Shown in pieces: positions 22,235 through 41,260 of a stretch of DNA of 64,000 nucleotides; the stretch's first letter is position 1; every line of letters begins with the position of its first letter. The DNA is from Planctomycetota bacterium. GTDB lineage: Bacteria; Planctomycetota; Phycisphaerae; Phycisphaerales; UBA1924. The notes under the pieces are model-generated. The model was not told where the DNA came from and did not search any database. It saw only the letters and a program-made list of their open reading frames with translations. The position numbers and the translations under genes are program-made. The stretch lies in the NCBI GenBank assembly GCA_003696675.1, contig RFGH01000117.1, positions 1 through 64,000 on the forward strand. Reading direction: 5' to 3'.

Positions 22235-23278
22235 ATGTCCATCAGCGTGATCATCCCCAGCCGGCCCAGGAGCGACGGTGTGCTCGAGCGGTGTCTCGGC
22301 TCGCTGCGCGACCAACTCGGGCCGCGGGACGAGGTGATCGTGTCGATCGACGGCCCGGACCTGCCCGCATCGGCCGGGCTGTTTCCGGAGGTGCAGTTCC
22401 TGACGGGTCCCAGGGTCGGACCCGGCGGGGCCCGCAATCGGGGGATCGACATCGCCCGGGGCGACCTGATTCTGTTCCTCAACGACGATGTGGAGGCCGA
22501 CCCGAGGTTGCTCGATGCACACCGCACGGCGCACATAGACGGATCCGCGCGGATGGTGCTGGGATCGGCGCCATGGGCAATCCCGGCGGATGATCGGGTG
22601 ATCGACCGGCTGCTGCGTGAGACCTCACTGATCTTCTTCTACAACAAGATGGATGACGCGGATCCGGATAGAGATTGGGGATTCCGGCACGCGTGGACGC
22701 TGAATCTGTCACTGCCAAAGACGATCGTGTCCCGGTTTGACGCGCGGCTGGCACAGCCGATGTTCGACGATCTGGAGTGGGCGTCGCGGGTACGGGCGGC
22801 GACCGGGGCACCGATCGTGTACCGGCCAGCGGCGCGGGTCACACACCATCATCGGTACACGCCGGAGATGCTGCTGCGTCGCGAGGCGTTGCTGGGGCAT
22901 CAGGCGGCGCGGCTTCATGAGGTCAATCCGGGCTGCGCGGGTGCGGTGTTCGGGGAGCGGTATCTCGCAGACATGGACGAGGTCTGCCGGCATGAGCACA
23001 CGGTAGCGGACACGCTTTCGAAGGCGAGGCGGGCGTTCGCCGACCTGCGTGCTGTTGCGGATGCTCCGTCGGGAGCCGTGGATCGCTGGGGGCTCGGGAG
23101 GCTGTTCGAGACATGCCGGGTTTGGCGTGAGGCGGCGCGGTCGATCGGGTTCCTCGGCTTTGTGAACGGCACGGACGCGGCGGGTGTTCAGGATGAAGCG
23201 CTCGCCCGGCTGGGGGGCGGCGTCGGGCGGACGCCGATCGTGGTGCCCGGGCCGGAGACGCTCCGCTCGGCGTCCTGA
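22235..23278 (+). CDS. Family 2 glycosyltransferase
   Basis: 347 residues; the ATG at 22235 has GGGAGG 7 nt upstream, better than earlier in-frame starts. MSISVIIPSRPR opens a GT-A fold, ARNRGIDIARGDLILFLNDD contains the DxD-type motif (NDDV), and the acceptor half ends around RVTHHHRYTPE. The C-terminal third is helical. It would transfer a sugar from a nucleotide donor onto a surface glycan. It is the first gene of the plus-strand glycan run and is followed by a kinase 4 nt after its stop. Confidence 0.85.
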   Translation: MSISVIIPSRPRSDGVLERCLGSLRDQLGPRDEVIVSIDGPDLPASAGLFPEVQFLTGPRVGPGGARNRGIDIARGDLILFLNDDVEADPRLLDAHRTAHIDGSARMVLGSAPWAIPADDRVIDRLLRETSLIFFYNKMDDADPDRDWGFRHAWTLNLSLPKTIVSRFDARLAQPMFDDLEWASRVRAATGAPIVYRPAARVTHHHRYTPEMLLRREALLGHQAARLHEVNPGCAGAVFGERYLADMDEVCRHEHTVADTLSKARRAFADLRAVADAPSGAVDRWGLGRLFETCRVWREAARSIGFLGFVNGTDAAGVQDEALARLGGGVGRTPIVVPGPETLRSAS

Positions 23279-23282
23279 TCGG

Positions 23283-24443
23283 ATGGGCAAAAACCGGCGT
23301 TCAAGGCCCGTTTACAGGTGGAGCGCAGGGCAAGCCGATAGTGGCAGGGTGAAGGAAACAGCGGCTTGCAGCCGGGATGACGACCGATCCGCGAGGGCGG
23401 GTGTGCTGCTGCGCGGGTTTTCCGGGGCGCGGCTGGAGATCGTGCGGCGGGACGGGCGGTCTTGGGTCCGCAAGTGGGCGGTGGATGGCGGGAACGAGCG
23501 GCTGAACGCCGAGCGTCGGCGGCTGGGGTGGCTTGCGAGCGTTGGGGCGGCCAGCGGGCTGTTTGAGGTGCCGCGGGTCGGCGCGGGCGGGGTCGACGGC
23601 GGGCGGGCGTGGTACGAGATCGAGTACGTGCCGGGGCGGTCAGTCGAATCGGTGGCCGCGGCGGACGGGCACGCGAGCGGGATCGACCTGGGCATCCGGC
23701 TGGCGCGGATCGCGGGGGTGCTGCGTGACGGAGCCCGGGGACCGGACGCCGAGGGGCATGCGGCGTTCCTGCGTGGCAAGCTGATGCAGACGGCGGCGTC
23801 GCTGCTTGGCCGGTGCGGGGCGGTTGGGCTTGGCGAGGCCGGGGCGACGTTCGAGCGCCTGACGGCGGGTCTGGACATTGATCGGGCGGCCGAGGTCGCG
23901 TCGGGAATCGGCGGGGGTTGCCACGGCGATCTGGCGTTGGACAACGCCCTGATCGATCGCAGCGGGCGGATCGTGCTGATCGACCCGCTGGCGAGCGATT
24001 CGGAAACGGCTTACTGGGACGCGGCCAAGGTGCTGCAGAGTTCGCTGGCGTGCTGGGGCGGGATCAAGTCGGGCGAGGTGCGGATGGTCGGACGCTCGTA
24101 CGGCGTTGCGAGGCCCGGCGGGCTGGCGGCGTTGCACCGGGCGTTTCTGACGTCCGTACTTGCTCAGGGCATGGACGAGCGGGCGCTTGCGGTGCATCTG
24201 GTGGTGACGCTCGCGCGGGTTATGCGATATGTGGATGGTGTAAGGCTGGGAGCGCTGCTGGGCGCGTCGATCGAACTGATGTACCGGCTGGAAGCCGGAG
24301 GGACGGTGCTGGATGAACCTCTTGATTCCCTGCGCGGGACGCTCGAGCCGGTACTCGACGGCGGCGCCGAAATACCTGCTGGCGATGCCGGACGGGCGGA
24401 CAATGCTGGAGCATGCGGCGGAGCGTTTCGTCGCGTCGGCTGA
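23283..24443 (+). CDS. APH/choline-kinase-like small-molecule kinase
   Basis: 386 residues from the ATG at 23283; a GTG at 23349 is also possible and the first 40 residues look poorly conserved. CHGDLALDNALID is the Brenner/catalytic loop (HGDxxxxN) and IVLIDPLAS supplies the metal-binding Asp, as in aminoglycoside and choline/ethanolamine kinases. Located between a glycosyltransferase and a nucleotidyltransferase, it more likely phosphorylates a sugar or amino-alcohol for glycan decoration than an antibiotic. The last 43 codons overlap the next gene by 131 nt and have no family character, suggesting the original stop was lost. Confidence 0.7.
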   Translation: MGKNRRSRPVYRWSAGQADSGRVKETAACSRDDDRSARAGVLLRGFSGARLEIVRRDGRSWVRKWAVDGGNERLNAERRRLGWLASVGAASGLFEVPRVGAGGVDGGRAWYEIEYVPGRSVESVAAADGHASGIDLGIRLARIAGVLRDGARGPDAEGHAAFLRGKLMQTAASLLGRCGAVGLGEAGATFERLTAGLDIDRAAEVASGIGGGCHGDLALDNALIDRSGRIVLIDPLASDSETAYWDAAKVLQSSLACWGGIKSGEVRMVGRSYGVARPGGLAALHRAFLTSVLAQGMDERALAVHLVVTLARVMRYVDGVRLGALLGASIELMYRLEAGGTVLDEPLDSLRGTLEPVLDGGAEIPAGDAGRADNAGACGGAFRRVG

Positions 24444-25380
24444 TCGGGTCGTCGTTGGCGTGCTGCGCGAGCATGACGAGCGGTTCGGGGTGGCCCGACT
24501 GGTCGGTGATTTCTTTCCCAGGGCGGAGGTCGTAGTCTTTAACGAGGTCACCTCGGGCCAGGCGGAAACGGTGGCGGAGATGATCGCCCGCTCGGAGATG
24601 ACCGGGCCGGTGCTGGTGAAGGACTCGGACTCGGCGTTTGTGCCGACGGCGGGGTACCCGGGCAACGCCAACGCGGTCAGCGTCTGCAGCGCTCGGAAGG
24701 TGCGGGGCGTTCGCCTGGACAACAAGGGCTTCGCCAGGCTCAACGAGCAGGGGCATATCGTCGCGACGGTGGAGAAGCAGATCAGCTCGGAGTGGTTCAG
24801 CTGCGGCGGATACTGGTTCCGCGAGGCGGGCGACTACGAGCGGGCCTTCCGCGAGCACGTGCGTGGCGGCGATGGACGCGAGTGCTACCTCACGCACGTG
24901 ATCGATCGGATGATCGGGCGCGGCGACCCGTTCGTGCCCGTTGAGTGCGAAGCGTACGAGGACTGGGGCACCGAGGCTGAGTGGATCGCGTACCGCTCCC
25001 GATTCGGCACCTACATCATGGATATCGACGGCGTGCTGTACGAGAACGGGCGGCGGCACTGGGCGCCGAGATGGGGTGAGTCCGCACCGATCCCCGGGGC
25101 CGTCGAGGCTTTGCGGGACCTCAAGGGACGCGGGCAGCACATCGTGCTCATGACCAGCCGCCCGGAGTCGTTCCGCGATGCGACAGAGCGGCAGCTGCGC
25201 TCGGACGGGGTCCCATTCGACCAGCTGGTCATGGGCGTGTTGCACGGGACGCGGGTGGTGGTGAATGACTACGCGGCGTCGACGCCCTTCCCGGCGGCGG
25301 TGGCGGTGAACTCGAAACGCAACAGCGGCGACTGGATCGGCGCGATCGGTCGGTCGATGGACGCAGCAGAAGGGAGCTGA
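24313..25380 (+). CDS. Nucleotidyltransferase fused to a HAD-type phosphatase
   Basis: 355 residues. LLIPCAGRSSRY...PKYLL (residues 3-23) is the signature of the NTP-transferase fold, placed at the very start, so the ATG at 24313 is well supported even though it lies inside the kinase gene. VLVKDSDSAF and SCGGYWFREAGDYE continue that domain to about residue 235. From MDIDGVLYENG (HAD motif I, DxD) through LMTSRPESF (motif II) to VVNDYA runs a HAD domain similar to polynucleotide-kinase 3'-phosphatase and capsule phosphatases. The enzyme would activate a phosphorylated compound with CTP or another NTP, with the HAD part removing or proofreading a phosphate. The exact product is unknown. Confidence 0.8.
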   Translation: MNLLIPCAGRSSRYSTAAPKYLLAMPDGRTMLEHAAERFVASADRVVVGVLREHDERFGVARLVGDFFPRAEVVVFNEVTSGQAETVAEMIARSEMTGPVLVKDSDSAFVPTAGYPGNANAVSVCSARKVRGVRLDNKGFARLNEQGHIVATVEKQISSEWFSCGGYWFREAGDYERAFREHVRGGDGRECYLTHVIDRMIGRGDPFVPVECEAYEDWGTEAEWIAYRSRFGTYIMDIDGVLYENGRRHWAPRWGESAPIPGAVEALRDLKGRGQHIVLMTSRPESFRDATERQLRSDGVPFDQLVMGVLHGTRVVVNDYAASTPFPAAVAVNSKRNSGDWIGAIGRSMDAAEGS

Positions 25381-25382
25381 TC

Positions 25383-26081
25383 ATGGCGGGCGTGCTCGAA
25401 GCCAAGGCGATCCGGAGTTATCTCGATGAGTTGTCCAAGACTCGGCAGGACTATCAGTCCGGCGGGTTGCGAGACCCCAAGACCATTTTGTGCAGTGATC
25501 TGACCGACGGTGAGCGGTTCGGGCTGCTGGCGGTGCTGCGCGAGGCGGAGCGCCGGGCGGAGGCCGAAGGACGGCGGGCCCGTTACCTCGAGATCGGCGT
25601 GCTGGCCGGCGGGACGATCCACTTCCTGAAGCAGAATGCCCAGAAGACCGAGTTCACCGGCGTGGATCTGTTCGAGGACTGGCAGCCGGAGGAAACCAAC
25701 ACGCACATGAGCGGCTCTTTCCGGGCGGCGGATGTGCAGGCGGCGCTCGGTGATGACGTCCGCCTGATCAAGGGCGCGTGGGAGTCGGTGGCAGCGTCGC
25801 TGGCGGAGGAACGGTTCGACGTGGTGTTCATCGACGCGAACCATGCCTACGCCGCGGTGCGGCAGGACTTCGAGCTGGTCCGGCCGCTGCTGCACCCCGG
25901 GGCCAGCGTGGGATTCCACAACTGCTCGTTCGATCGCGAGCCAGATATTCTGTATGTCGACGACGACGGCGGGCCTTGGAAGTTCACACAGGAGCTGCGA
26001 CGAGACTCCGGCTGCTGGATGGAGTTGGAGCGTGATCGTCTGCGGGTGTTCCGCGTGGACGAAACCGGCACGGATCGCTGA
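25383..26081 (+). CDS. Class I SAM-dependent methyltransferase
   Basis: 232 residues; ATG 25383 is 2 nt after the previous stop, with GGGAG upstream. YLEIGVLAGGTIHFL is the SAM-binding motif I, FTGVDLF the acidic motif II, and RFDVVFIDANHAYAAVRQDF a motif of the TylF/Methyltransf_24-type families. It probably O-methylates a sugar or the group attached by the preceding kinase/nucleotidyltransferase pair. The substrate cannot be told from the sequence. Confidence 0.8.
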   Translation: MAGVLEAKAIRSYLDELSKTRQDYQSGGLRDPKTILCSDLTDGERFGLLAVLREAERRAEAEGRRARYLEIGVLAGGTIHFLKQNAQKTEFTGVDLFEDWQPEETNTHMSGSFRAADVQAALGDDVRLIKGAWESVAASLAEERFDVVFIDANHAYAAVRQDFELVRPLLHPGASVGFHNCSFDREPDILYVDDDGGPWKFTQELRRDSGCWMELERDRLRVFRVDETGTDR

Positions 26082-26103
26082 GGATCGATAAGGGAGCCCC
26101 CCA

Positions 26104-26709
26104 ATGAGCACCGCGACGATTGAGAAGACCGGATCCATGCCCGACTGGCTGGGTCACGTGGACAGAGCCGAGGGCTGGCTGAGCCTGGACGAGGCTCGGC
26201 TGCTTCACACGCTTGCCGGCGAGGTCGCGGAGGGATGCATCGTGGAGGTTGGGGCCTACCGCGGGCGATCCACGATCGCCCTGAGCGCCGGTGCCCCGGA
26301 GGGGATCCCGGTCTACTCGATCGATCCGCACGCGGAGATGTGGGTGAACGGCAAGCTCGCGTACGCCGGACCGGACGATCGGGCCGCGTTCTATCGGGCG
26401 ATGCTGGACAGCGGGGCGACTCGGAATGTGCATCTGCTCAACTCCACGAGTGAGCGGCTGACGCCCGGATGGGACATCCCGGTCGGGCTGCTTTGGATCG
26501 ATGGCGATCACTCGTACGAAGGCGTCGCCCGAGACTGGGCGTGCTGGCGGCCGCACCTGATGCCGGGATGTACGGTGGTGTTCGACGACGCACACGACCC
26601 GGCGGTCGGGCCTCATCGCCTGATCAGCGAGCTGCTGGCGGCGGGCGAAATCGTGCACCGCAGGAATGTGGGCAAAGTGAGGAGCGTGGTGTTTCAGCCT
26701 GCCGGCTGA
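26104..26709 (+). CDS. Class I SAM-dependent methyltransferase (Methyltransf_24-like)
   Basis: 201 residues, ATG 26104 behind AAGGGAG. IVEVGAYRGRSTIAL is the SAM motif I, VYSIDPHAE motif II, and LLWIDGDHSYEGVARDW the conserved Asp/His motif of this branch; a second Asp pair occurs in VVFDDAH. It belongs to the same broad family as the preceding gene but shares little detailed sequence, so it is not a recent duplicate. It is the last gene of the plus-strand run and ends 16 nt inside the convergent GT4 gene. Confidence 0.8.
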   Translation: MSTATIEKTGSMPDWLGHVDRAEGWLSLDEARLLHTLAGEVAEGCIVEVGAYRGRSTIALSAGAPEGIPVYSIDPHAEMWVNGKLAYAGPDDRAAFYRAMLDSGATRNVHLLNSTSERLTPGWDIPVGLLWIDGDHSYEGVARDWACWRPHLMPGCTVVFDDAHDPAVGPHRLISELLAAGEIVHRRNVGKVRSVVFQPAG

Positions 26710-28211
26710 ACCTCGGCTATCGGCGCATAGATCCGTCGAACAACGAGCCCCTGTGCCTCGTAGACGCGACGACGACGCCAAATCTGCTCTTCATGCAGCC
26801 ACGAACTGATGACCACGCATCGTGATCCGGCTATTCCGGCGCTGTGGGGTGCTAGAACTGGCACTCCGCACACGCTACGCCCCCACTGCTGCGGATCATC
26901 GTCCGTTACGGCGACGACGCGGACACCCAGCCGGCACAGTGGTTCCCAGATTGCGATGGTGTGGGCTCCCGCACCGTGAAGAACGATCGGCTGCCCCGCG
27001 AGGTCCGCGAGAGATGAGTGCAGTGTTTCGACCAAGTTGTCCGGCACGGTAAAGCTGGCGTAGCGGTGCGGATCGCTCGCGACCCGGCGCCAGGCATGTC
27101 GATGGGGCTCCGCCGCCCGAACATCGGTCAGCGCGGAAACAAGCGCGGACGCGTAGGCCCCCATGCCGAACATCGATCGGCTGGCCCGAACTGCCGCGCT
27201 GCGCATCGGGTCGAGCGGGCGGGCCAATGCTTGCGAGACGACACATGCGAATCGCTCGGCAGCTTGATCATCATCAAGATCCGCGGGGCAGTCGGCGACG
27301 AAACCGTTGTGGCCGTGCCGGATCCCTTCGGCCGACCCGCCCGGAGTCACGACGGGCACGCAGCCGTGCATGGCCGCCTCGATACGCGCCAGCCCGAGGC
27401 CTTCGGAGCGTGAAGGCAGAAGCAGCATGTCGTGGGTTGCATACAGAGGGGGCAGATCGCTGTGTGTGACGGCGTTTTGCAAGGCGATTCCTTCCACGCC
27501 GGCCGCACGCTTGGCAAGCTCTGTGCGGGCCGGTCCATCGCCCACAATGGTCAGGGAGACAGAGGCGCCGGCATCGCGGAGTCGTTCGACAATGGCCGGC
27601 AGGGCTAGGACGCGCTTCTGGAATGCTTCGAGCCGACCGACATAGAGCAATCGGACAGGATCATGAGCCGGGCCGTGCGCGGCTGGAACCCGACCGCTAA
27701 AAGGAACACCCGTCCTCGCTACGCGCAGCATCGCGGGCGGGCATGCCGAGGAGCCCGCGAGTTGATCGGCGGCGGCTTGACTGACACAAATCACACAGGA
27801 GAGGCACGGCGCGAAGCGGCGGATAAGCTCGGTGTCGTAGCGGATATCGGTGTGCATCCATCCCACGATCGAGATTCCCGGATCGTCTATCGCATGCGCG
27901 GCGGATGCGGCTGCAGCGTAGGCCTGGCCCGAGAGTTGCGGCGCGAGAACGACCCGATCGACGCCAGTGGCACACAATGATCGACTGGCTTCGATGATCA
28001 TGTCTACGAGCGGTCGACTGGAGTCGGCCGGGGAGGTGCAGAGCCCTGGACCGATTGTCGTGCAACGGCCGCCGGCGGCCTTCACGGCTTGGGTGGTGTG
28101 TTCGGCCCAGACAGTCACACCGCCGAGCTGTGGGCCGGTGGGAAGGATGATGACGCACCCGAGCCCGCGGAGTGCGCCGGATCGAGGGTGTTTGACATCG
28201 GACTTAGACAA
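26694..28211 (-). CDS. Family 4-type glycosyltransferase with C-terminal Rossmann-like domain
   Basis: About 505 residues if it begins at TTG 28211; the open frame extends to 28382 but overlaps the upstream gene, and no ATG or GTG is well placed, so the start is uncertain. GPQLGGVTVWAEHT begins the N-terminal GT-B half. The C-terminal half has LLYVGRLEAFQKRVL, LTIVGDGP and SEGLGLARIEAAMHGCVPVV, the classic GT4 donor site. After it comes an extra domain (VLHGAGAHTIAIWEP...VTDDDPQQWG...VVISSW) that also ends the protein at 30870-31985. It is the last gene of a five-gene minus-strand operon. Confidence 0.8.
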   Translation of the reverse strand: MSKSDVKHPRSGALRGLGCVIILPTGPQLGGVTVWAEHTTQAVKAAGGRCTTIGPGLCTSPADSSRPLVDMIIEASRSLCATGVDRVVLAPQLSGQAYAAAASAAHAIDDPGISIVGWMHTDIRYDTELIRRFAPCLSCVICVSQAAADQLAGSSACPPAMLRVARTGVPFSGRVPAAHGPAHDPVRLLYVGRLEAFQKRVLALPAIVERLRDAGASVSLTIVGDGPARTELAKRAAGVEGIALQNAVTHSDLPPLYATHDMLLLPSRSEGLGLARIEAAMHGCVPVVTPGGSAEGIRHGHNGFVADCPADLDDDQAAERFACVVSQALARPLDPMRSAAVRASRSMFGMGAYASALVSALTDVRAAEPHRHAWRRVASDPHRYASFTVPDNLVETLHSSLADLAGQPIVLHGAGAHTIAIWEPLCRLGVRVVAVTDDDPQQWGRSVCGVPVLAPHSAGIAGSRCVVISSWLHEEQIWRRRRVYEAQGLVVRRIYAPIAEVQPAG

Positions 28212-29229
28212 CCGCCGCCCCCGCGTCCAGAGTTGCAACGGGAGAAATCCAGCCCAGACCCGATGACCGGGCGGCTTCCAACGCCCGGGCGAAACGATCG
28301 CCGAGGTGATCCGGAGGAAGATGGCCCGCGAGCAGACGATGCAGCCAACGATCATGTCGGCAGAACAGGTGCCCGTGCGCAAGACCGGCCTGGCTTGGCT
28401 TGAACGATGCGGCCATCGGGGCGTCGAGAGGCTGTGGCGTACCCGATGACCAATCTCGGAACTCGATCAATCCGTCCGGGCTGTTAAAGCGAAAATGCGA
28501 CGCATAGACCGCGTACGCGCTGGCTAGCGTTTCCAAATACGCGTCATTTGCAAGAAGTTGCTCTACACGCTCCCAGCGGTTGGATTCACCGAGTCCAGTC
28601 TGGGTGAACTTGGTGAGGAACGGTTCGAATCGATCGGTGATCTCACGGAATGGATGGACAAAGCGGCGATAGTGGGTGATGCCGCATCCGACTGGATAAC
28701 GCAAGGAGTACGACTCATCGTAGTTGATCAGTTTGCGGAGATCTGATGCTCGCCCGATGAAGCATTCATCAGACAAATAGAAGGGGGTGGTCAGCTCAAA
28801 CCATGGCACCCAGACACGGTGGTCGAACACGCGCCCTGCGCCGGGTGGCACGCCGGCGGACAGGTAGTCCGATGAGCTTGCGATGGACTGGAGCACTGCG
28901 GGATCCAGCCACAGGTCGGCGCGTGTCTTGAATACCAGGGCGTTCTCTGGAAGTCGGTCGAGCCCGATCTCCATCGCCAGCATCTGTGGCCAAACATTAC
29001 CGATGCCGCGGACGGCTGGATCTGGACGGATTGTGAGTTCGACGCCAGCGTGCTCGAGCGCTCGAACGAGACTCGGTTCGCGATCGGCCTCACTTGTCCA
29101 GGTGACCATCAGCACGCGATCGACCGCACCACGCACGCGGAGCTCATTCCATGACGCAACGCTGCGCAGCAGCAGCTCGGGCGTTCGGAGCATGCCTGTG
29201 ACGAGGATGATCAGCGGAGTTGCGGTCAT
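28204..29229 (-). CDS. WavE-like glycan biosynthesis protein
   Basis: 341 residues from the ATG at 29229, which overlaps the upstream stop by 4 nt (ATGA). LIILVTGMLRTPELLLRSVASW, ALVFKTRADLWLDPAVLQSI and DECFIGRASDLRKLI resemble WavE-type lipopolysaccharide synthesis proteins, including the KTRxD motif; they are thought to be GT-A glycosyltransferases. The family call is from memory and is moderate. The gene is translationally coupled to the GT2 before it, and its stop overlaps the likely start of the GT4 after it. Confidence 0.6.
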   Translation of the reverse strand: MTATPLIILVTGMLRTPELLLRSVASWNELRVRGAVDRVLMVTWTSEADREPSLVRALEHAGVELTIRPDPAVRGIGNVWPQMLAMEIGLDRLPENALVFKTRADLWLDPAVLQSIASSSDYLSAGVPPGAGRVFDHRVWVPWFELTTPFYLSDECFIGRASDLRKLINYDESYSLRYPVGCGITHYRRFVHPFREITDRFEPFLTKFTQTGLGESNRWERVEQLLANDAYLETLASAYAVYASHFRFNSPDGLIEFRDWSSGTPQPLDAPMAASFKPSQAGLAHGHLFCRHDRWLHRLLAGHLPPDHLGDRFARALEAARSSGLGWISPVATLDAGAAVV

Positions 29230-30125
29230 GCCGCGGTCTCCTGGGCGGCGAGTCGCTCGGGCAGACCCCAGAGGTTCAGTCCCTCGAATGCTGCGGGGCC
29301 ATGCTCGATCCAGAAACGGAGCACCTCCGTCTCGTGCCATGGCTGGTCGTCCCATTGGATGAGGGACCGGATGTGGCCGTACGGAGACCACCACTCCGGC
29401 GGGACCTGAGCCAGGCGGAGGTTGTTTGCGTCGAGTGCCTGGTTGTACATGGCGTCGATCGCCTGGGGCGTTTTGCGTCCGGGGAAACGCACAGTTTCAG
29501 ACATCTTGTACCAAGCGTGTTTCGCGATGAGTCGGCGTCGGTTGGCGAACTGTAGATGCATCACCCCGCCCATCGATTGTTCCGCGAGCGGTCTGACGGG
29601 CTTGGCACGCACCCCGTTCGGAGTCTGTTGATGCATGTCGTAGCCGTCTCGTTGAGCGCGATAAGCAATGTCCGGATGGTCTGCGAACGCAAAGACCTTG
29701 AAGTTGTTCGTCCAGACGCTCGAATCAGACCGGAAGCGATCTGGACTCTCCCACATCGCCAGCCATGGAAGTTCCAGCGTCCGACCAGGCTCAAGCCCCG
29801 CGATCCAACCTCTGACATCCGCGATGATGTTGGCGGTCAGAATTTCATCCGCGTCGACCCAAAAGAAATGCGTTCCGCCGGCGGCACGCCCGGCGCCGAG
29901 TGTGCGTTGACGAATTTCCATCTCGTTGTAATGCCGGCCTGTCCACTCGGCCCTGTGAACCCGACCCGGATGGTCCCGCTGAACACGATCGATGATGCCG
30001 GGTGTGTCGTCGGTGGAATCGTGGTCGAGCACGACAATCTCGTCGACGAAACGAAGTGCCGCCGGGAGGCTTGCACCCAGAATCCATTGCTCGTTGCGGA
30101 CATGCATCAGGCCGATCAGTTTCAT
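29226..30125 (-). CDS. Family 2 glycosyltransferase (GT-A)
   Basis: 299 residues, ATG 30125 overlapping the previous stop by 4 nt. MHVRNEQWILGASLPAAL and VDEIVVLDHDSTDDT are the nucleotide-binding start of a GT2 of the WaaE/KdtX-like branch, and FFWVDADEILTANI carries the DxD-type metal site. The C-terminal part is rich in Trp and His and has no membrane segment. It probably adds one sugar to a surface glycan in the cytoplasm. Confidence 0.8.
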   Translation of the reverse strand: MKLIGLMHVRNEQWILGASLPAALRFVDEIVVLDHDSTDDTPGIIDRVQRDHPGRVHRAEWTGRHYNEMEIRQRTLGAGRAAGGTHFFWVDADEILTANIIADVRGWIAGLEPGRTLELPWLAMWESPDRFRSDSSVWTNNFKVFAFADHPDIAYRAQRDGYDMHQQTPNGVRAKPVRPLAEQSMGGVMHLQFANRRRLIAKHAWYKMSETVRFPGRKTPQAIDAMYNQALDANNLRLAQVPPEWWSPYGHIRSLIQWDDQPWHETEVLRFWIEHGPAAFEGLNLWGLPERLAAQETAA

Positions 30126-30868
30126 GCCGTCCCCTTCTCGGCTGGCTCAAGAGATAGGCGGTAGCCATGGCTGGTCAACCACGCACCCGCAATTGTTTCA
30201 ATGGCCCGAACGGCATCGGGCGACAGATCGGTGATCCACTGCCCAGTCCGGCCATCTCGGACATGATTTGGGTGGAGCAGATCGCCTTCCGCGTGGAGTC
30301 GCTTGTCGCCCGGGATCGCTGGCCTCATACGTCCTTCACGGATTGCGGAATCGATGCGCTTGCGCTGGCGTTCCGGACTGAACTCCTCAGCGAGTTGACG
30401 CGCGGTTTGCAAGTCGCAGGGCACACGGATGTGTTCGGCCATCTCCATGATACAGTCGGCCGTTTCATCCACGAACCGGTCATAGGCCCACCAACGCACG
30501 GCCTCGCACACGGGCCAACCGTTGTAACAGGCTAGGCAACCTTTTGTCATTTCGCTGCAGTAATCCGGCGTTGGACTGATACCGTCCTTGTGCGCACCGC
30601 TGACAATGACATCTCGCAGATCCCGGTGCACCGCGACTGCCCTGGCCCTGCCGTCCAGCAGGCGTATCCGCATCGGATGTTTGCACACATGCGTCTTGAA
30701 CACCAGCATCTCGCTCGGATCGCCAAGCTGTTCGGCAAGACCGGCAAAGTCTTCGGGCGTACGCCACTCGAGGCGTCGTCCGAGGGACGACCGCTCGATC
30801 AGCGTGGAGATGAGCTGAAACTGCAGCGTCGATCCGGAGCGAAACATGCCACCTGCGAAGATCCACAT
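30122..30868 (-). CDS. Sulfotransferase-family protein
   Basis: 248 residues from the ATG at 30868, 1 nt after the upstream stop. GGMFRSGSTLQFQLI is the 5'-phosphosulfate loop and AVHRDLRDVIVSGAHK the 3'-phosphate-binding motif of PAPS-dependent sulfotransferases. The family moves sulfate from PAPS onto carbohydrates, lipids or proteins. In this operon a glycan hydroxyl is the natural target, giving a sulfated surface polysaccharide. Several cysteines lie between the two halves (CSEMTKGCLACYNGWPVC), which is unusual; their role is unknown. Confidence 0.78.
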   Translation of the reverse strand: MWIFAGGMFRSGSTLQFQLISTLIERSSLGRRLEWRTPEDFAGLAEQLGDPSEMLVFKTHVCKHPMRIRLLDGRARAVAVHRDLRDVIVSGAHKDGISPTPDYCSEMTKGCLACYNGWPVCEAVRWWAYDRFVDETADCIMEMAEHIRVPCDLQTARQLAEEFSPERQRKRIDSAIREGRMRPAIPGDKRLHAEGDLLHPNHVRDGRTGQWITDLSPDAVRAIETIAGAWLTSHGYRLSLEPAEKGTA

Positions 30869-30869
30869 G

Positions 30870-31985
30870 TCATGCCCTAACCTTTGCCGGCGTGACCGCA
30901 CCATAAAGCCCGATGATCCGGACGCCGCGCTGCTCGAACCCGGAGGCCCGTGTTCTCAGGCGGGGTTCCATGGCATCGGACGAGAGGATGATGGCGTCGA
31001 GCTCCAGATCGATTGCCTGCTCCCGCGAGACCACCGGGAAGTTCCAGAGGCGGCCACCAACCCGTGCCGGATCGTCGTCCACGATTGCGACGATCTCTAC
31101 TCGCGGGCTGCGGAGCGCCTGACCGGCACGCGCCGTGTGTTGCCCTGCGCCATAGATCGCCACACGCCGCCAACCGTTCTGAGCGCATCTCGAGAGTGCA
31201 TCACCGAGGCGTCGGGCGGGCTCCTGATCGGACGCCGCACCGTAGCGATGTCGGTACCAGGCTTCCGCACGGCCGGTGTACTCGGCTGCGAAGACAGATA
31301 GATCGAGCAGATCCGGCTGATCGCTGGGTGCAGCGCCGGGGAATCCGGTCCGGCTTCGTGCGATGAAGGTCAGGCAGTCTGATTCATCGTGCGATGCCGC
31401 GGAATCCACCCAGTAGGCCGGAGCCGGCTCGCCCATTCGGCGGAAATGCTGGTGGTACTGCGTCAGATCCGGACGGGCCCAGAACCTGCCAGCGCACCGG
31501 CTGACCCAGTAGAGTTCGTCGTCGGCATACTGCTGGAAGTACGCCGTGCATAAACCGCCGCGGCCCGCATACATCCGCTCCATCCATGACCGGCCCAGCC
31601 AAGGCGAGCCACAGATGGTATCGGTGGCCTCGAAGCCATCGCCTGTTGGCTGCATGACGCCGAAGTCGCCACCGAAGTGATCGAGGAACTCGGTGGCGAT
31701 CTCGGCGGCTCGCTTGTTCGGATCGGGGAGCATGTCATCCCCGCCACAAACCACGACGCGGCAGGTAGCCGGAACTACCTCCCGGAAGATGGTGTTGATG
31801 GAGCTGGCCCAGCCGGGGTACCGGTCCCTGACCAGCACAGCATCCGCACTGACCTCGAAACGCTCGCGATCCTGCAGAACAGCGACTCGATAGCCCTGAT
31901 CCCGCCACGTGGGAAGGTTGCGCCGACATTTCTCCGCGTTGGCGCTGGGGAGCACGAACCAGACCTCGGGCGATGTGCCTGCCAC
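30870..31985 (-). CDS. Glycosyltransferase-like protein with C-terminal Rossmann-like domain
   Basis: 371 residues from GTG at 31985. The N-terminal 230 residues look like a GT-A enzyme (WFVLPSANAEKCRRNLPTW, VVVCGGDDMLPDPNKRA with a DD metal pair). The last 105 residues (VAIYGAGQHTARAGQAL...IVAIVDDDPARVGGRLW...DAIILSSD) form a separate dinucleotide-fold-like domain shared with the GT4 at 26694. It is the first gene of the minus-strand glycan operon, which is oriented divergently from the large gene at 32088. The donor and acceptor are unknown. Confidence 0.65.
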   Translation of the reverse strand: MAGTSPEVWFVLPSANAEKCRRNLPTWRDQGYRVAVLQDRERFEVSADAVLVRDRYPGWASSINTIFREVVPATCRVVVCGGDDMLPDPNKRAAEIATEFLDHFGGDFGVMQPTGDGFEATDTICGSPWLGRSWMERMYAGRGGLCTAYFQQYADDELYWVSRCAGRFWARPDLTQYHQHFRRMGEPAPAYWVDSAASHDESDCLTFIARSRTGFPGAAPSDQPDLLDLSVFAAEYTGRAEAWYRHRYGAASDQEPARRLGDALSRCAQNGWRRVAIYGAGQHTARAGQALRSPRVEIVAIVDDDPARVGGRLWNFPVVSREQAIDLELDAIILSSDAMEPRLRTRASGFEQRGVRIIGLYGAVTPAKVRA

Positions 31986-32087
31986 GCTCCGGGTATCGGC
32001 GGATCGGGCCTGAGATCGGGAGTTTTGGGCACCTCGACCACGCCCGAAATGTGCCGTGGATCAGTCGATTCGGCCGATCCGCCTCCC

Positions 32088-34547
32088 ATGCCTCTCGCCG
32101 CTGGCCATGACCGAGCAGTGATCCCCTCGACCCCCCAGCCGGCGCCCGCCAACCCGTGGACAATCGCGGCCAACGCGATGGGCCAGCTCCGCAAGGGTGG
32201 TCCCGACCACCTCCGGGTGCTCATCGCCAGGGCGATGGGCGGGTTGGGGTTGCCCGAGCTGGCCGAAGCATGGGCGACCACCGTGCCCCAGACCGCCGAG
32301 CTGGCACCTCTGGTCAATCAGATCCGAGACGCGCTGCCCGGGCTCAAACCGTCTGAAAGATCCGCTGCCGAACGGGTCGCTACCTTGGAACTGAACCTAG
32401 CGGCCAACCCCTCGCTCGCCGCGGACCTTGCCCCATTCATCGACGCGTGGCGGAGCAGAGCGAACGATCATCGCTGGTTCCGGACCCGCGATGGCCAGAC
32501 GGTCATTGTGGACAGCCGGCTCCCCATCGATCACCCGCAGAGCCTTGTGCGGTTCGGCGACGAGCGGACACGGTGTGCGGGCCGCTCACTGCCTCTGAAC
32601 CGACCGGACGCGGCGGGGCCTCCACCTCCGGTGCTGGTGGATGGGCTGCGGAGCGCGGATTCCGTCATCGATCTCTGCGCCCGCTATCCGAGGCTTGAAA
32701 GCAGAGCCTGGGCAAGGCTGCTCATTGTCGAATCGAACCCGGACATCGTCCTCGATGTTCTCAGCGAGCGTGATCTCCGATCATTCATTTCCCAGGAGCG
32801 GATGCATATTTTCACCGGACCGGATTGCAAGGATCGGGTAACCGAGTTCCTCCGTGAACGCATGGCGGATTGGGCCTCGGTTTCCTACATCTCCGAGAGA
32901 CCGGATGGACCGGACCGTGCCCTGGAGGCCAGACTGAAGGAACTCACCGCGGCGCGAGCAGGTGAGTATCGCGCTCTATTGGCCAGAAACAACGCGGCTT
33001 ATGCGGACCGTGATGCCGCATGGTGGGCGAATCGCTATCAGAAAGCACGCGACGGCACCGCCGATCCCCTGAGAGCACTGGTCGTCACCACCCGGTTCTC
33101 AACTTACATCCAGCACGCATCCCGCGATCTGTGCAAGGCCTTCGAGGCCTGCGGCATGGTCTCCATGCTTTTGATCGAACCAGACGACGCCAGCCGGACA
33201 GATGGGCTCCGCATCGCTCGGGCGATCGATTCATTTCGCCCGGACCTGTTTGTGGTCATCAACTACACGCGCGGACAGTTCGCCGACTCCGTCCCTCGGC
33301 AGGTTCCCCACTGCTGCTGGGTGCAGGACGCCATGCCGCACCTGTTCTCACGGACGGCGGGGGCGGACATCGATGCACTGAGTATTGTTGTTGGCAGCGT
33401 TTTCAAGGAGTTTGTTGAAACATATCGGTATCCACGCGATGCGTGCCTGCTCTTCGATGTGCCCGCGTTGGGGGCATGTTTCGACGCCAAGCCCCGCCGG
33501 TTCTGCGACATCGATGTGCTCATCGCGACAAACCACGGTGAAACACCCGAAGCAATGGCCGCCAGGCTCGATCGGGAGTGCACAGACTCGGGCGGCCCCC
33601 CCGGACTCATGCACGAGATCTACGAGGCGCTTTCGGCAAATCTGGTCCATTGGAAGCACGGCTTTTTGCTCTACTGGATTGAAGACACCCTTCGGCCGGT
33701 CTTCGATCGACACGGCTACGACCCCCGCGCCGACAATGCCCGCACGATCATTCGGGACGCCGCGACGCCCATGGTCAATCGGATGCTCCGGCACCGGGTG
33801 ATCGGATGGGCCGCCGAACTGGCGCGAGATCACGGTTGGAACCTGGTCCTCGCCGGGCGGGGCTGGCAGGACCATCCGAGTCTTGGTGCTTACGCCATCG
33901 GTGAAGCCAACCACGGATCGGAACTCCGCGATCTGTACAACCGCTCGCTTGTGACACTTCATGCCAGTTCGGCATGGATTTTTCACCAACGCATCTATGA
34001 AAGCCTCCTCGCAGGTAGCATGCCGGCGATGTTCTTCAAACCGGACGATCTCACCGGGCTGCTTCGTCCGGCGCGTGTGATGACGAGACTCGGGCTTCGC
34101 CCCTGCTGCACCATGCTCGACGACCGGCGGCTCCACGCACACGCACTTGATCATCCGATTGGCGGGCTGGCGTTGTGTCTGGCCCAACGGCTGGCACCGC
34201 ACGGTACGCCCCCGATCCAACCGGGTCGGAACTGGAAGACCGAGGTCGCTCTGCAAACCGGCTTCTTCCCGTGGCGTGATGGTGTCGCAGACCACTCCGA
34301 ATACATTGCCGAGTTGCACACTCCGGAAGAGCAGGTGCGACTCATGTGGGCGGTGAGTGATGGCTTCTTCCGCGACAAACTGGAACTTGCATCCCTGATC
34401 GAGCGAGGCCGCAACGACCCCGACTGGCGTCTCGCCAATATCCGCCACGCGTCCTCGATCGTTCGCGAATCCTTCACCCTTGAGCGAACGGCCAAAGGGA
34501 TTGCGGAGTTCATGCAAGACCGTTTTGCGTCCCGGGAACCTGGATGA
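32088..34547 (+). CDS. Large glycosyltransferase-like protein
   Basis: 819 residues if started at the ATG at 32088; an in-frame ATG at 32049 and a GTG at 32118 are alternatives, and no Shine-Dalgarno sequence settles it. The N-terminal 300 residues are helical with no recognised family. From ALVVTTRFSTYIQHASRDL a GT-B-type region follows, with HCCWVQDAMPHLF, a WNLVLAGRGW strand, and SLVTLHASSAWIFHQRIYESLLAGS, the usual donor-site helix in CgeB-like and DUF3880-like transferases. It probably acts on the same glycan as its neighbours. Codon use is less GC-biased than in the housekeeping genes nearby. Confidence 0.6.
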   Translation: MPLAAGHDRAVIPSTPQPAPANPWTIAANAMGQLRKGGPDHLRVLIARAMGGLGLPELAEAWATTVPQTAELAPLVNQIRDALPGLKPSERSAAERVATLELNLAANPSLAADLAPFIDAWRSRANDHRWFRTRDGQTVIVDSRLPIDHPQSLVRFGDERTRCAGRSLPLNRPDAAGPPPPVLVDGLRSADSVIDLCARYPRLESRAWARLLIVESNPDIVLDVLSERDLRSFISQERMHIFTGPDCKDRVTEFLRERMADWASVSYISERPDGPDRALEARLKELTAARAGEYRALLARNNAAYADRDAAWWANRYQKARDGTADPLRALVVTTRFSTYIQHASRDLCKAFEACGMVSMLLIEPDDASRTDGLRIARAIDSFRPDLFVVINYTRGQFADSVPRQVPHCCWVQDAMPHLFSRTAGADIDALSIVVGSVFKEFVETYRYPRDACLLFDVPALGACFDAKPRRFCDIDVLIATNHGETPEAMAARLDRECTDSGGPPGLMHEIYEALSANLVHWKHGFLLYWIEDTLRPVFDRHGYDPRADNARTIIRDAATPMVNRMLRHRVIGWAAELARDHGWNLVLAGRGWQDHPSLGAYAIGEANHGSELRDLYNRSLVTLHASSAWIFHQRIYESLLAGSMPAMFFKPDDLTGLLRPARVMTRLGLRPCCTMLDDRRLHAHALDHPIGGLALCLAQRLAPHGTPPIQPGRNWKTEVALQTGFFPWRDGVADHSEYIAELHTPEEQVRLMWAVSDGFFRDKLELASLIERGRNDPDWRLANIRHASSIVRESFTLERTAKGIAEFMQDRFASREPG

Positions 34548-34556
34548 AGAAATGTC

Positions 34557-35069
34557 TCAGTGAGGAGCGACACTGCCGATCAGCTTCTCACCGTCCGGAC
34601 GGGTGATCTCGATCCACCAGAGCGTGGGCTCGGGCAGGGGGTCCGGTGCGACCACATGGACATCGTATGTTCCGCTCGATGCGCTGTAATCCGCCCTCGA
34701 TACCACGGATGAGAATCGGTCATCGGTTCCGAGCCACGCCCTGATCACGGAAGATCCTGCGTCAGATTCCGGGAGCCGGATGACGAGATGCAGCTCCTTG
34801 CCCGGCTCGAGCTGCCCGTGCCCCTGGGCGAGGCGGACTTCCATCCCGCCCAACTGGATTGATCCGATGTCGACCTCGTCGTGGTGATCCTCGTCCATCT
34901 GACCCGAATGATCGTGCTCGGCGTGATCATGATCATCATGGGAATGATCGTGACCATGGCCGCCGGCCGGGTCGGCGGGCTGAGCCTCTGAGCTTCCTTG
35001 CCCACATCCGGCACACCAGATCGCTGTTGCGAGGCACATCCATCCTGTGATCATCTTGAGCTGAAACAT
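34557..35069 (-). CDS. His-rich lipoprotein of the metal-efflux operon
   Basis: 170 residues, ATG 35069, directly after the RND gene. A lipobox ends in WCAGC (C22). Residues 36-65 hold ten histidines among Asp and Glu (GGHGHDHSHDDHDHAEHDHS and onward), a typical zinc, nickel or cobalt-binding run. The rest is a beta-rich domain (about 75-170) of unknown family. It would sit in the periplasm on a membrane and could buffer or hand over metal to the efflux pump. It is the last gene of the operon. Confidence 0.7.
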   Translation of the reverse strand: MFQLKMITGWMCLATAIWCAGCGQGSSEAQPADPAGGHGHDHSHDDHDHAEHDHSGQMDEDHHDEVDIGSIQLGGMEVRLAQGHGQLEPGKELHLVIRLPESDAGSSVIRAWLGTDDRFSSVVSRADYSASSGTYDVHVVAPDPLPEPTLWWIEITRPDGEKLIGSVAPH

Positions 35070-35070
35070 A

Positions 35071-38000
35071 TCAGTTACCCTTTCCTCTTTGTGCGAGTGC
35101 CGCGAGAATGCGAATCCCGACGATTCGCGTCGGCCTCTTTTCCCGAGCGGGAGTCTTGTATCCGAACACGAGAGAGTACCCTGCCGGGACCACGATGAGA
35201 TTCAAGAACGTCGATGTCAGAAGACCACCCAGCGTCACAACCGCCAGGGGGGCGAGCAGCTCGCTGCCCGGCTGTCCACCCGCGATCGCCAGCGGCAGCA
35301 GCCCGAGGGCCGCGGAGATCGCTGTCATCAGGATTGGCACAAGCCGCTCCATCGAGCCCTGCACGATGGCCTCGCCGAGCGGAACACCTTCGGCATGGAT
35401 CAGATGGTTGTAGTGGTTGATGAGGAGAATGCCGTTGCGAACGGCGATGCCAAAGAGTGTGATAAACCCAACCATGCTCGCGATGGAGATCACCGGCGGA
35501 ACGTACTGGCCGCCGATATTCAAGAGTGCAAGCGTGTTCCGAATGGGGCCTGCACCCTCGGTGAGATAGATCGCCACAATCCCGCCGATGAGCGCAAGCG
35601 GCATATTGAGCATCACGAGGAGCGAAGCCCGGATCGATCCGGTGGAGATCTGCAGCAGCATCAGCATCGCGATGGCTACCGCCACACCCGCAAGCCCGAT
35701 GGTCCTGGCCGCGGATTGCTGCGCTTCAAACTGGCCGTCGTAGCTCACGGTCATCCCCGTGCCCGCGACAAGCGGATCGACGCGAGACCGAACCTCGGCC
35801 ACCAGGTCGCCCAGATTCGATCCCTCCGCCACGTTGAGCGAAACAACCGCCTTGCGCCGGGCATTCTCGCGAGCGATCAGATTGCTCGAGCGCTCCGGCC
35901 CGATATCCGCGACATCGCTCAACCGCACAATCGCCCCTCCCCGCCCGGTCAGCAACAGGTCCTTGACATCCTGGATCGTCGCCCGCTCCTCAGGTGCTAA
36001 CCTGACAACGAGATCATACTGCCGGATGCCCTGCTTGACCGTGTCGACAACTTCTCCGTACAAAGCTTCTCGAACTTGCTCTGCCGCATCGGCCGGGCTG
36101 AGTCCGACAGCTGCCAGATCAGGATGCCGGTAGCGGATCGGCAGAGAAGTGATCATGACCTCCCTGTTCGCGTTCACGTCCCGTGCGCCGGGCAGAGTGC
36201 GCAGCTCGCCCTCGATGGACTTGGCAACCCGGCGCAGCTCGGCGAGGTCCTCTCCGTAGATGCTGATCGCGATGGCCGCAGGTGTGCCGGACATGATGTG
36301 GCTGAGCCGGTGCTCGATCGGCTGGCCGACCATGGTGGTAATGCCCGGAACCGATGCAAGCACGCGATCGATATTGTTCCTGACCTTCCTGCGATCTTGC
36401 CCCGGATCGACAGTCACCTCGATCTCGGAACTGCTCACCGGTTCCGCATGCTCGTCACGCTCGGCTCGCCCTGTGCGGCGTGAGACAGAGCGAACTCCCG
36501 GAATGTTCACGAGCTGCTTTTCGACCTCCGTGGCCAGCCGATCGCTCTCCACAATCGATGTGCCTGGGGGGGCGATCAGGAAAACGGTGTATGTACCCTC
36601 GTTGAATGAAGGGAGAAAAGAGGTTCCGAAAGTGCCGGCGAGCCAGAGTGACCCTGCAGTCGCGAGGCCCGCACCGCCCAAGACCCAGGCTCGCCCGCGG
36701 ATCGCCGAGCGCAGCGACGGCTCGTAGGCCCGCTTCAGCAAGCGGACCAACCATGCATCGGCGTGGCCGCGATCCGAGCCCAGTCGCCCCTGGAGCAGGA
36801 AACGGCTCATGGCCGGAACTACAGTCAGCGCCACCACCAGTGAAGCAAGAATCGAGACCATGTATGTCAGGGCCAGCGGCTGAAAGAATCGGCCCTCGAG
36901 CCCCCGCAGGAACAGCAGCGGAACAAAGACCATCACGATGATCACGGTTGCGAACACCATCGCGGGACGGATCTCGTTGCTCGCATCAAAGACCACTTGC
37001 GTGATCGGCTTCCGCTCGCCTTCCGCGAGTGTGTTGTTCTGCTTCAGCCGCCGGTAGACATTTTCCACATCGATGATGGCGTCGTCCACGAGCACCCCGA
37101 TCGCCACGGTCAATCCGCCCAGCGTCATCACGTTCAGACCAAGGCTCAGCCCGTCCATCATCAGCAGGCCCACCGCAAGGGAGATCGGAATAGCGGTGAG
37201 CGTGATGACGGTCGTCCGGACGTTCATCAAGAAAAGAACCAGAACCACCAGAACGATCACGACGGCTTCGCCGAGCACCTTGGTGACATTGTGGACGGCA
37301 CGATCGATAAAATGCGATTGCCGCATCACATCGCGGTTCAGATCCATGCCTGTGGGCAACCCCGGCTCGATCTGATCGAACAGCGAGTCGAGCTGCCTGG
37401 TGAGTGTCAATGTATTGGTACCAGGCGACTTCTGAATCGACAGAATCACGGCGGGCCGGCCGCTCTCGGAAGCGGTGCCGCGCTTCATCGCGGGCCCGAT
37501 CCGCACGTCCGCCACCTGGCCGATCGTCACCGGCGTTCCGTCGTGATACTTGATGATCGTGCCCGCGATGTCCTCCGGTCGGGTGACCCGGCTCTGTTGA
37601 CGCACCGGGATCTCAAAGTGCTCCACATCGACCAGGTAGCCGCCGCTCGCCGTGCTGTGGGCGCCCCCCGCCGCTTCGACGACATCCGAGATCGTCAGTC
37701 CGTACAGACGCAGGCGTTCTTGGTCAACATTGACCTGATACTCGGGAAGCTCGCCGCCGATGGCGACGACCTGCGCAACCCCCGGCACGGCCAGAATCTG
37801 ATTGCGCAGCTCGAACTCAGCATACGAACGCAGCTCCATCGGGCTAATCGATGAATCAGGCGAGGAAATCGCGATCAGCATGATCTCCCCAGCGATCGAG
37901 GTGATCGGCGTGATGAACGGATCAACATCCGGCGGCAAGGAGTCTCTCGCCGCTACCAGCCGTTCGGCCACCAACTGCCGCGCCCGATAGAGATCCGCCC

Positions 38001-38298
38001 CCCACTCCAGATCGACCCACACGATGCCTAGGCCGATCGCGCTCGCGCTCCTCACACGCCGGACACCGGTCATCCCGTTGACCGCCGACTCGATCGGGAA
38101 GACTACATACTGCTCGACCTCATCCGCAGCCAGCCCGCCAGACTCGGCCATGATCGTCACAGTCGGTGCGTTGAGTTCCGGGAATACATCGACACTCATC
38201 CTCGGAAGCCGATAGCCCGCGTATCCCACAACGAGCGCGGCGGCGATCAGGACGAGCGAGGAATACCGGAGCGAGAATCCGATGACAGCCTTGAGCAT
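35071..38298 (-). CDS. czcA: CzcA-type heavy-metal efflux RND transporter
   Basis: 1075 residues. It begins with a transmembrane helix followed by RMSVDVFPELNAPTVTI, typical of HME-RND pumps. Twelve membrane segments in the 1+5+1+5 arrangement can be traced; the helix near residue 405 carries VDDAIIDVENVYRRL, the acidic proton-relay motif of CzcA/CusA proteins. The protein takes metal ions from the periplasm and drives them out through the membrane-fusion and outer-membrane partners encoded just upstream. Its start shares one base with the stop of the adaptor gene (TGATG). Metal specificity (Zn/Co/Cd versus Cu/Ag) cannot be fixed from sequence alone. Confidence 0.93.
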   Translation of the reverse strand: MLKAVIGFSLRYSSLVLIAAALVVGYAGYRLPRMSVDVFPELNAPTVTIMAESGGLAADEVEQYVVFPIESAVNGMTGVRRVRSASAIGLGIVWVDLEWGADLYRARQLVAERLVAARDSLPPDVDPFITPITSIAGEIMLIAISSPDSSISPMELRSYAEFELRNQILAVPGVAQVVAIGGELPEYQVNVDQERLRLYGLTISDVVEAAGGAHSTASGGYLVDVEHFEIPVRQQSRVTRPEDIAGTIIKYHDGTPVTIGQVADVRIGPAMKRGTASESGRPAVILSIQKSPGTNTLTLTRQLDSLFDQIEPGLPTGMDLNRDVMRQSHFIDRAVHNVTKVLGEAVVIVLVVLVLFLMNVRTTVITLTAIPISLAVGLLMMDGLSLGLNVMTLGGLTVAIGVLVDDAIIDVENVYRRLKQNNTLAEGERKPITQVVFDASNEIRPAMVFATVIIVMVFVPLLFLRGLEGRFFQPLALTYMVSILASLVVALTVVPAMSRFLLQGRLGSDRGHADAWLVRLLKRAYEPSLRSAIRGRAWVLGGAGLATAGSLWLAGTFGTSFLPSFNEGTYTVFLIAPPGTSIVESDRLATEVEKQLVNIPGVRSVSRRTGRAERDEHAEPVSSSEIEVTVDPGQDRRKVRNNIDRVLASVPGITTMVGQPIEHRLSHIMSGTPAAIAISIYGEDLAELRRVAKSIEGELRTLPGARDVNANREVMITSLPIRYRHPDLAAVGLSPADAAEQVREALYGEVVDTVKQGIRQYDLVVRLAPEERATIQDVKDLLLTGRGGAIVRLSDVADIGPERSSNLIARENARRKAVVSLNVAEGSNLGDLVAEVRSRVDPLVAGTGMTVSYDGQFEAQQSAARTIGLAGVAVAIAMLMLLQISTGSIRASLLVMLNMPLALIGGIVAIYLTEGAGPIRNTLALLNIGGQYVPPVISIASMVGFITLFGIAVRNGILLINHYNHLIHAEGVPLGEAIVQGSMERLVPILMTAISAALGLLPLAIAGGQPGSELLAPLAVVTLGGLLTSTFLNLIVVPAGYSLVFGYKTPAREKRPTRIVGIRILAALAQRGKGN

Positions 38299-41182: not shown

Positions 41183-41260
41183 CCGTCTGCTTCCTGTCGA
41201 GATGCAAATGAGCCACGCCGCGGCGGGAACCGTCGCGGCACGCACACTGGAAGCCGGGAT

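Follow-up and report, generated by a model that had tools for sequence, protein, structure and literature searches.

The window analyzed here is a 64,000-nucleotide stretch of a Planctomycetota bacterium (assembly GCA_003696675.1, contig RFGH01000117.1, positions 1 to 64,000). Translations of its open reading frames (ORFs) place a gene island at 22235–34547, with a MoxR/VWA-like gene pair on one side and an RND-type efflux operon on the other. Two adjacent plus-strand genes of the island are the subject of this work. One encodes an APH-type kinase, and the other encodes a nucleotidyltransferase (NTase) fused to a HAD domain. The genes of the island are listed in Table 1.

Table 1. Genes and domains of the island, with their Pfam matches (GT, glycosyltransferase)
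Feature	Position (nt)	Strand	Pfam match and remarks
GT2 glycosyltransferase	22235–23278	+	PF00535, E 2.4e-15; first in plus-strand run
APH-type small-molecule/sugar kinase	23283, 23349 or 23403 (start uncertain) to 24443	+	PF01636, E 2e-11
NTase-HAD fusion	24313–25380	+	PF12804, 1e-7 (residues 4–112); PF13344, 1e-6 (residues 235–304)
NTase domain of the fusion (residues 1–235)	24313–25017	+	PF12804
Capless HAD domain of the fusion (putative phosphatase)	25012–25380	+	PF13344; DIDG 237–240, TSRP 281–284, ND 318–319
Methyltransf_24 class I methyltransferase	25383–26081	+	PF13578, E 4e-17
Second Methyltransf_24 methyltransferase	26104–26709	+	PF13578, E 1e-20
GT4 glycosyltransferase with NeuD/PglD-like C-terminal domain	26694–28382	-	PF13692, E 2e-21
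Uncharacterised protein (earlier label "WavE-like")	28204–29394	-	no profile match
GT2-type glycosyltransferase	29226–30125	-	PF13704, E 1e-8
Sulfotransferase	30122–30904	-	PF00685, E 2e-6
Uncharacterised protein, one domain common with GT4	30870–31985	-	no GT match
Large GT-B-like protein	31677–34547	+	PF13524, E 7e-7 (residues 714–781)

The window kinase stood alone. PF01636 was its sole Pfam match, its length was at most about 419 codons, and it had no NTase-like half. The HGDxxxxN and ID motifs were conserved in a 20-sequence alignment, and its catalytic motifs were intact. The kinase frame overlapped the fusion gene by 131 nt. The start of the fusion at 24313 (MNLLIPCAGRSSRY) was the same start position as that of its relatives, so the overlap, as read from the frames, is probably real; it suggests translational coupling of the two genes. 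The catalytic motifs of the NTase domain were also intact. The HAD domain was aligned with phage HADs and EcbF-type HADs, and it contained the DxD and threonine motifs, with ND as motif IV. PDB profile matches of this domain were Pnkp1 (4xrp, 5e-5) and a V. cholerae protein (1xpj, 0.025), and the NCBIfam search gave no match to TIGR01689. The domain would act as a phosphatase, a predicted activity that is not assured.

Single-sequence searches with the fusion found no close relatives among bacterial genome contigs or viral contigs. Relatives were gathered by two routes: a two-sequence profile yielded ten viral contigs and the genome of a Candidatus Bilophila, whereas a phage protein yielded 38 viral contigs; several contigs were retrieved by both searches. 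Marine virus AG-345-E15 encoded a full-length fusion with 32% identity, and an APH kinase gene was located immediately upstream. In all retrieved loci with enough flanking sequence (46/46), mostly marine phage contigs, the kinase gene was directly upstream of the NTase gene, usually with an overlap of 10–116 nt. Two of the 46 came from one broken-frame contig, whose gene pieces gave a negative overlap figure. The NTase sequences of these loci formed 20 clusters at 95% identity, 11 at 80% and 4 at 50%, so the adjacency does not go back to a single recent copy. In Candidatus Bilophila, the kinase and fusion genes overlapped by four bases. The HAD part was missing in one locus (L049), and a Methyltransf_24 gene was directly upstream of the kinase gene in one phage group (L061, L065–L067). 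Judged by this gene order, the kinase and NTase are a true unit, with synteny conserved far beyond Phycisphaerae. The presence of the module in many marine phages suggests that these carry a supply of activated sugar of their own.

A planctomycete profile search found the same activities in a single chain. Genome G383, another planctomycete, encoded a 633-amino-acid protein (L109:5309–7210) with an NTase domain at about residues 13–245, a HAD domain at about 250–370 and an APH kinase domain at about 380–620. Comparison within a small sequence set gave E-values of 7e-17 against the phage fusion and 5e-10 against the window fusion, across NTase and HAD. That the parts are encoded separately in some genomes and as a single chain elsewhere is strong evidence for a shared pathway. 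The single-chain protein is also a ready subject for enzymology. Its gene was followed by a WavE-family gene, and its HAD motif I was DLEG instead of DxDG.

One alternative is that the kinase and the NTase-HAD lie together without being related, or that the HAD does general housekeeping as a phosphatase; all three superfamilies (APH, NTP_transferase and HAD) have many members and turn up frequently in glycan loci. This explanation is very improbable, and it is already largely refuted by the adjacency in every locus, usually with overlapping genes, and by the natural three-domain protein. An earlier note on this DNA had proposed that the kinase and NTase belong together, and the proposal held well outside Phycisphaerae. 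The contrary outcome that it had named, no co-occurrence in other genomes, is excluded by the 46 loci, Bilophila and the planctomycete protein.

The three domains were found in several arrangements. The window and the phages had a kinase followed by NTase-HAD. An E. coli plasmid, E. coli chromosomes, Phaeobacter and Caballeronia had a HAD, an NTase/kinase protein and an NTase. A fourth arrangement, in which an NTase and HAD_2 accompany a fusion of a lysylphosphatidylglycerol-synthase-type membrane domain with an APH kinase, was found on a Pseudochrobactrum plasmid, a faecal contig and in G113 (fusions at L022:3964–5973, L024:9121–11073 and L038:9726–11660). Rhizobium plasmids encoded a 497-amino-acid tandem NTase-NTase protein (L036:8242–9735 and L037:8239–9732), and in L037 a HAD_2 phosphatase gene was directly upstream of it. 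One marine phage (L021:22794–25025) had a second set, in which the HAD was separate and was accompanied by a cupin and by a fusion of NTase and kinase similar to KfoE-type proteins.

The nearest genetically studied relative of the kinase and fusion is the gene set for fructosylation of the E. coli K4 capsule. The layout of L095 was that of the K4 capsule locus. Its NTase and HAD genes are those that we take to be named orf1 and orf3. Both published kfoE deletion-primer arms (PMC7429809) matched L095 exactly, flanking a 522-amino-acid ORF, and this ORF is therefore kfoE. Deletion of kfoE stops fructosylation of K4 chondroitin, and KfoE is called a fructosyltransferase in the field (PMC7429809, PMC7925653). 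The protein (L095:7270–8838) looks like an NTase-like half joined to a kinase-like half, not like a classical glycosyltransferase. In the small-set comparison, the three-domain protein matched orf1 at 2e-13, the KfoE C-terminal half at 9e-13 and orf3 at 5e-5; its best match to EcbF-type HADs was 2e-9. The window-family profile matched the Orf1-type NTase at 4e-26 in a 24-sequence set. The K4 trio and the window have homologous parts, an NTase, a HAD and an APH-type kinase, encoded in adjacent genes in both, and the homology is bridged by the L109 protein. A difference lies in how the parts are joined. KfoE combines its kinase half with a second, NTase-like half at the N-terminus, and the K4 HAD is a protein of its own; the window instead joins the HAD to the NTase and has a free-standing kinase. 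Because the window fusion and the K4 products align with the same three-domain protein, the window module is, at the sequence level, a distant relative of a trio with one member needed for fructose decoration. This kinship does not make fructose the substrate of the window module. The earlier note had expected the activated group to be new; it need not be wholly so, as relatives occur at capsule and O-antigen loci of E. coli.

The EcbF/BcbF capsule phosphatases (TIGR01689; 1xpj) and the V. cholerae NTase 4evw are homologues of the window HAD and NTase, and unlike the window fusion they are stand-alone proteins. On plasmids as well as chromosomes, KfoE-type proteins were accompanied by EcbF-type HADs and 4evw-type NTases.

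The probable substrate was approached through profile and structure comparisons. The best PDB profile match of the fusion family for the NTase was V. cholerae 4evw (E 1e-15). The NTase model (pLDDT 83) also aligned best with 4evw (Z 25.8), followed by UDP-glucose pyrophosphorylase (23.2), inositol-1-phosphate cytidylyltransferase (4jd0, 22.6) and GlmU (22.4). By sequence and model structure, the NTase is thus nearest to 4evw and sugar-1-phosphate NTases. For the kinase model, the best solved structures were 5-methylthioribose kinase (Z 17.8), PsiK (17.5), glucosamine kinase (16.4) and maltokinase (16.0), so the predicted fold appears nearest to sugar kinases, with 5-methylthioribose kinase first. 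Anomeric hydroxyls are the target of 5-methylthioribose kinase and maltokinase. A GalE-like short-chain dehydrogenase/reductase (SDR) gene followed the fusion in most phage loci, as expected for a nucleoside diphosphate (NDP)-sugar.

The earlier note had pointed to phosphocholine (LicA/LicC) or phosphoramidate activation. In a LicA/LicC-like route, the kinase would make phosphocholine, phosphoethanolamine or another phospho-alcohol, the NTase would make the CDP-alcohol, a transferase would add the phospho-group to the glycan, and the methyltransferases would modify it. The window and LicA/LicC/LicD share a kinase and a PF12804-type NTase, and PF12804 includes LicC and PntC (PMC6697681). PntC, at Z 21.8, was close to the sugar NTases in the fold comparison. 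Choline kinases were among the weak PDB matches of the kinase-family profile (S. pneumoniae LicA 4r77, 6e-5; 3c5i, E 0.009), so choline-type substrates are possible by profile similarity, and some related trios adjoin CDP-glycerol glycerophosphotransferase-family genes. Against this route, the window unit has a built-in phosphatase that LicA/LicC would not need, its NTase is nearest to 4evw rather than LicC by sequence and structure, an SDR epimerase accompanies the phage copies, and kfoE, the kinase-bearing gene of the related trio, is needed for fructosylation and not for a phospho-substituent (PMC7429809). No LicD-type phosphotransferase (PF04991) was matched in the whole assembly (92% complete), which bears out the absence already claimed for the island. 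LicC and MurU were not among the fold-search matches listed, which proves nothing. We consider the LicA/LicC-like route unlikely. The idea of an activated group stands, and its phosphocholine/phosphoramidate form is not favoured, given the HAD in the unit and the resemblance of the NTase and the kinase model to sugar-type enzymes. A phosphonate route of the PntC type was rejected: phosphoenolpyruvate (PEP) mutase with the EDKxxxxxNS motif was absent from the genome, and the sole PF13714 (PEP_mutase-family) protein had no EDK in its translation.

A third possibility is that the kinase and NTase produce an NDP-polyol or NDP-alditol, such as a CDP-polyol from which units of polyol phosphate would be added, while the HAD would remove a phosphate from a precursor. 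Inositol-1-phosphate cytidylyltransferase was among the closest NTase structures, and CDP-glycerol glycerophosphotransferase-family genes lay beside trios in E. coli and Phaeobacter. However, trios were also present in O-antigen loci of the ordinary Wzx/Wzy type and at the K4 locus, which is non-teichoic, and Pfam recognised no such phosphotransferase in the window's island. Polyol activation seems quite unlikely.

A proven precedent for three such activities on one sugar is MupP/AmgK/MurU of Pseudomonas, in which a HAD, an anomeric kinase and an NTase recycle MurNAc-6-P to UDP-MurNAc (PMC5371407). The system has a HAD phosphatase, an anomeric sugar kinase and a small GlmU-like NTase, activities like those proposed for the window, and its kinase and NTase genes are adjacent (PMC5371407), as they are in the window. 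The differences are that MupP is of the HAD_2 family and the window HAD is capless, and that MupP serves cell-wall recycling whereas the window HAD lies in a glycan island. MurU and AmgK gave no match in NCBIfam up to E 0.5 or in the PDB profile searches; the sequences were not compared directly. The GDP-heptose pathway (GmhB/HddA/HddC) likewise combines a kinase with a HAD phosphatase and an NTase, but its kinase belongs to the GHMP type and not, as in the window, to the APH type. The NTase of the three-domain protein matched the 6-deoxy-heptose pathway enzyme 6jq8 weakly (E 0.03).

The kinase and NTase-HAD are rather probably one pathway of three activities, which converts a sugar or sugar phosphate to a nucleotide-activated sugar for a surface glycan built by neighbouring genes. 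This sugar reading is favoured because the NTase and the kinase model resemble sugar-type enzymes, a phosphatase is part of the unit, LicD is absent and MupP/AmgK/MurU offers a precedent. Plain sugar activation, which the earlier note had set against its own proposal, is thus now the best reading. The class of substrate, taken to be a sugar and perhaps a ketose like fructose, is inferred, as are the sequence of reactions, the nucleotide used, the transferase and the activity of the HAD domain. The APH-type kinase would phosphorylate the anomeric hydroxyl, and the HAD domain would remove the other phosphate, acting ahead of the kinase in the manner of MupP or following it in the manner of GmhB in heptose synthesis. 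The NTase would condense the sugar-1(2)-phosphate with a nucleoside triphosphate, a neighbouring glycosyltransferase would use the activated sugar, and the two methyltransferases and the sulfotransferase may decorate the glycan. The GT2 at the head of the plus-strand run is a candidate transferase for the module.

Several observations weigh against sugar activation. The kinase model was of modest confidence (pLDDT 68), PsiK, whose substrate is an aromatic alcohol amine, tied with 5-methylthioribose kinase in its comparison, and LicA was among the kinase-profile matches. In the fold comparison of the NTase, LicC-like PntC was level with GlmU. In the HAD domain, the usual motif III lysine was missing or not conserved. 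No SDR gene adjoined the pair in the window, Bilophila or L047/L049. In the latter two loci (L047:9014–13148 and L049:8295–11251), radical SAM genes and genes for class I/II aminotransferases came after the pair, and L047 also had a carbamoyltransferase-like gene. Finally, the fusion was absent from the sampled members of the window's own family, which is consistent with lateral transfer.

A more specific proposal is that the module makes a nucleotide-activated ketose, for example NDP-fructofuranose, via an anomeric ketose phosphate, and that the trio is the missing fructose/furanose donor pathway in capsules, some O-antigens and phage-encoded glycans. We put this forward tentatively and regard it as doubtful. 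If the general reading of sugar activation is right, a poorly characterised group of capsule genes, namely kfoE together with the HAD and NTase genes beside it and the relatives of 4evw and 1xpj, would gain a testable role, three enzymes making one activated sugar. No paper naming an NDP-fructose donor for capsules was found in the literature searched. A universal equation of the trio with fructose was rejected. The trio was also found in an O78-type O-antigen locus, and we know of no fructose in that antigen. C. jejuni IA3902 has genes for proteins of 240, 507 and 132 amino acids, the sizes of the trio and matched by size alone, and no new sugar was seen. In C. jejuni HS1, HS1.08 alone accounts for the fructose branches, and the trio is missing from the published gene list of the locus (PMC7901785); the trio is therefore not a general requirement for fructose.

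Pfam matches upheld the gene set described earlier for the remainder of the island, except for the WavE-like label. Up to E 0.5, neither Pfam nor NCBIfam gave a WavE match for the gene at 28204–29394. In a four-sequence comparison its product aligned weakly with one WavE-family protein (24% over 137 amino acids, E 1e-3), and the WavE identity was rejected as being without profile support. The GT4 and the protein at 30870–31985 had a NeuD/PglD-like domain in common (27% over 129 amino acids). The true start of the large GT-B-like gene is probably after 31985. The GC content of the island was not unusual. Among the E. coli loci, the K-type of L094, perhaps K52, was not used as evidence. ORF translations of the RND-type efflux operon adjoining the island (34557–41245, minus strand) indicated a CzcA-like pump, a membrane fusion protein and a TolC-like outer membrane protein.

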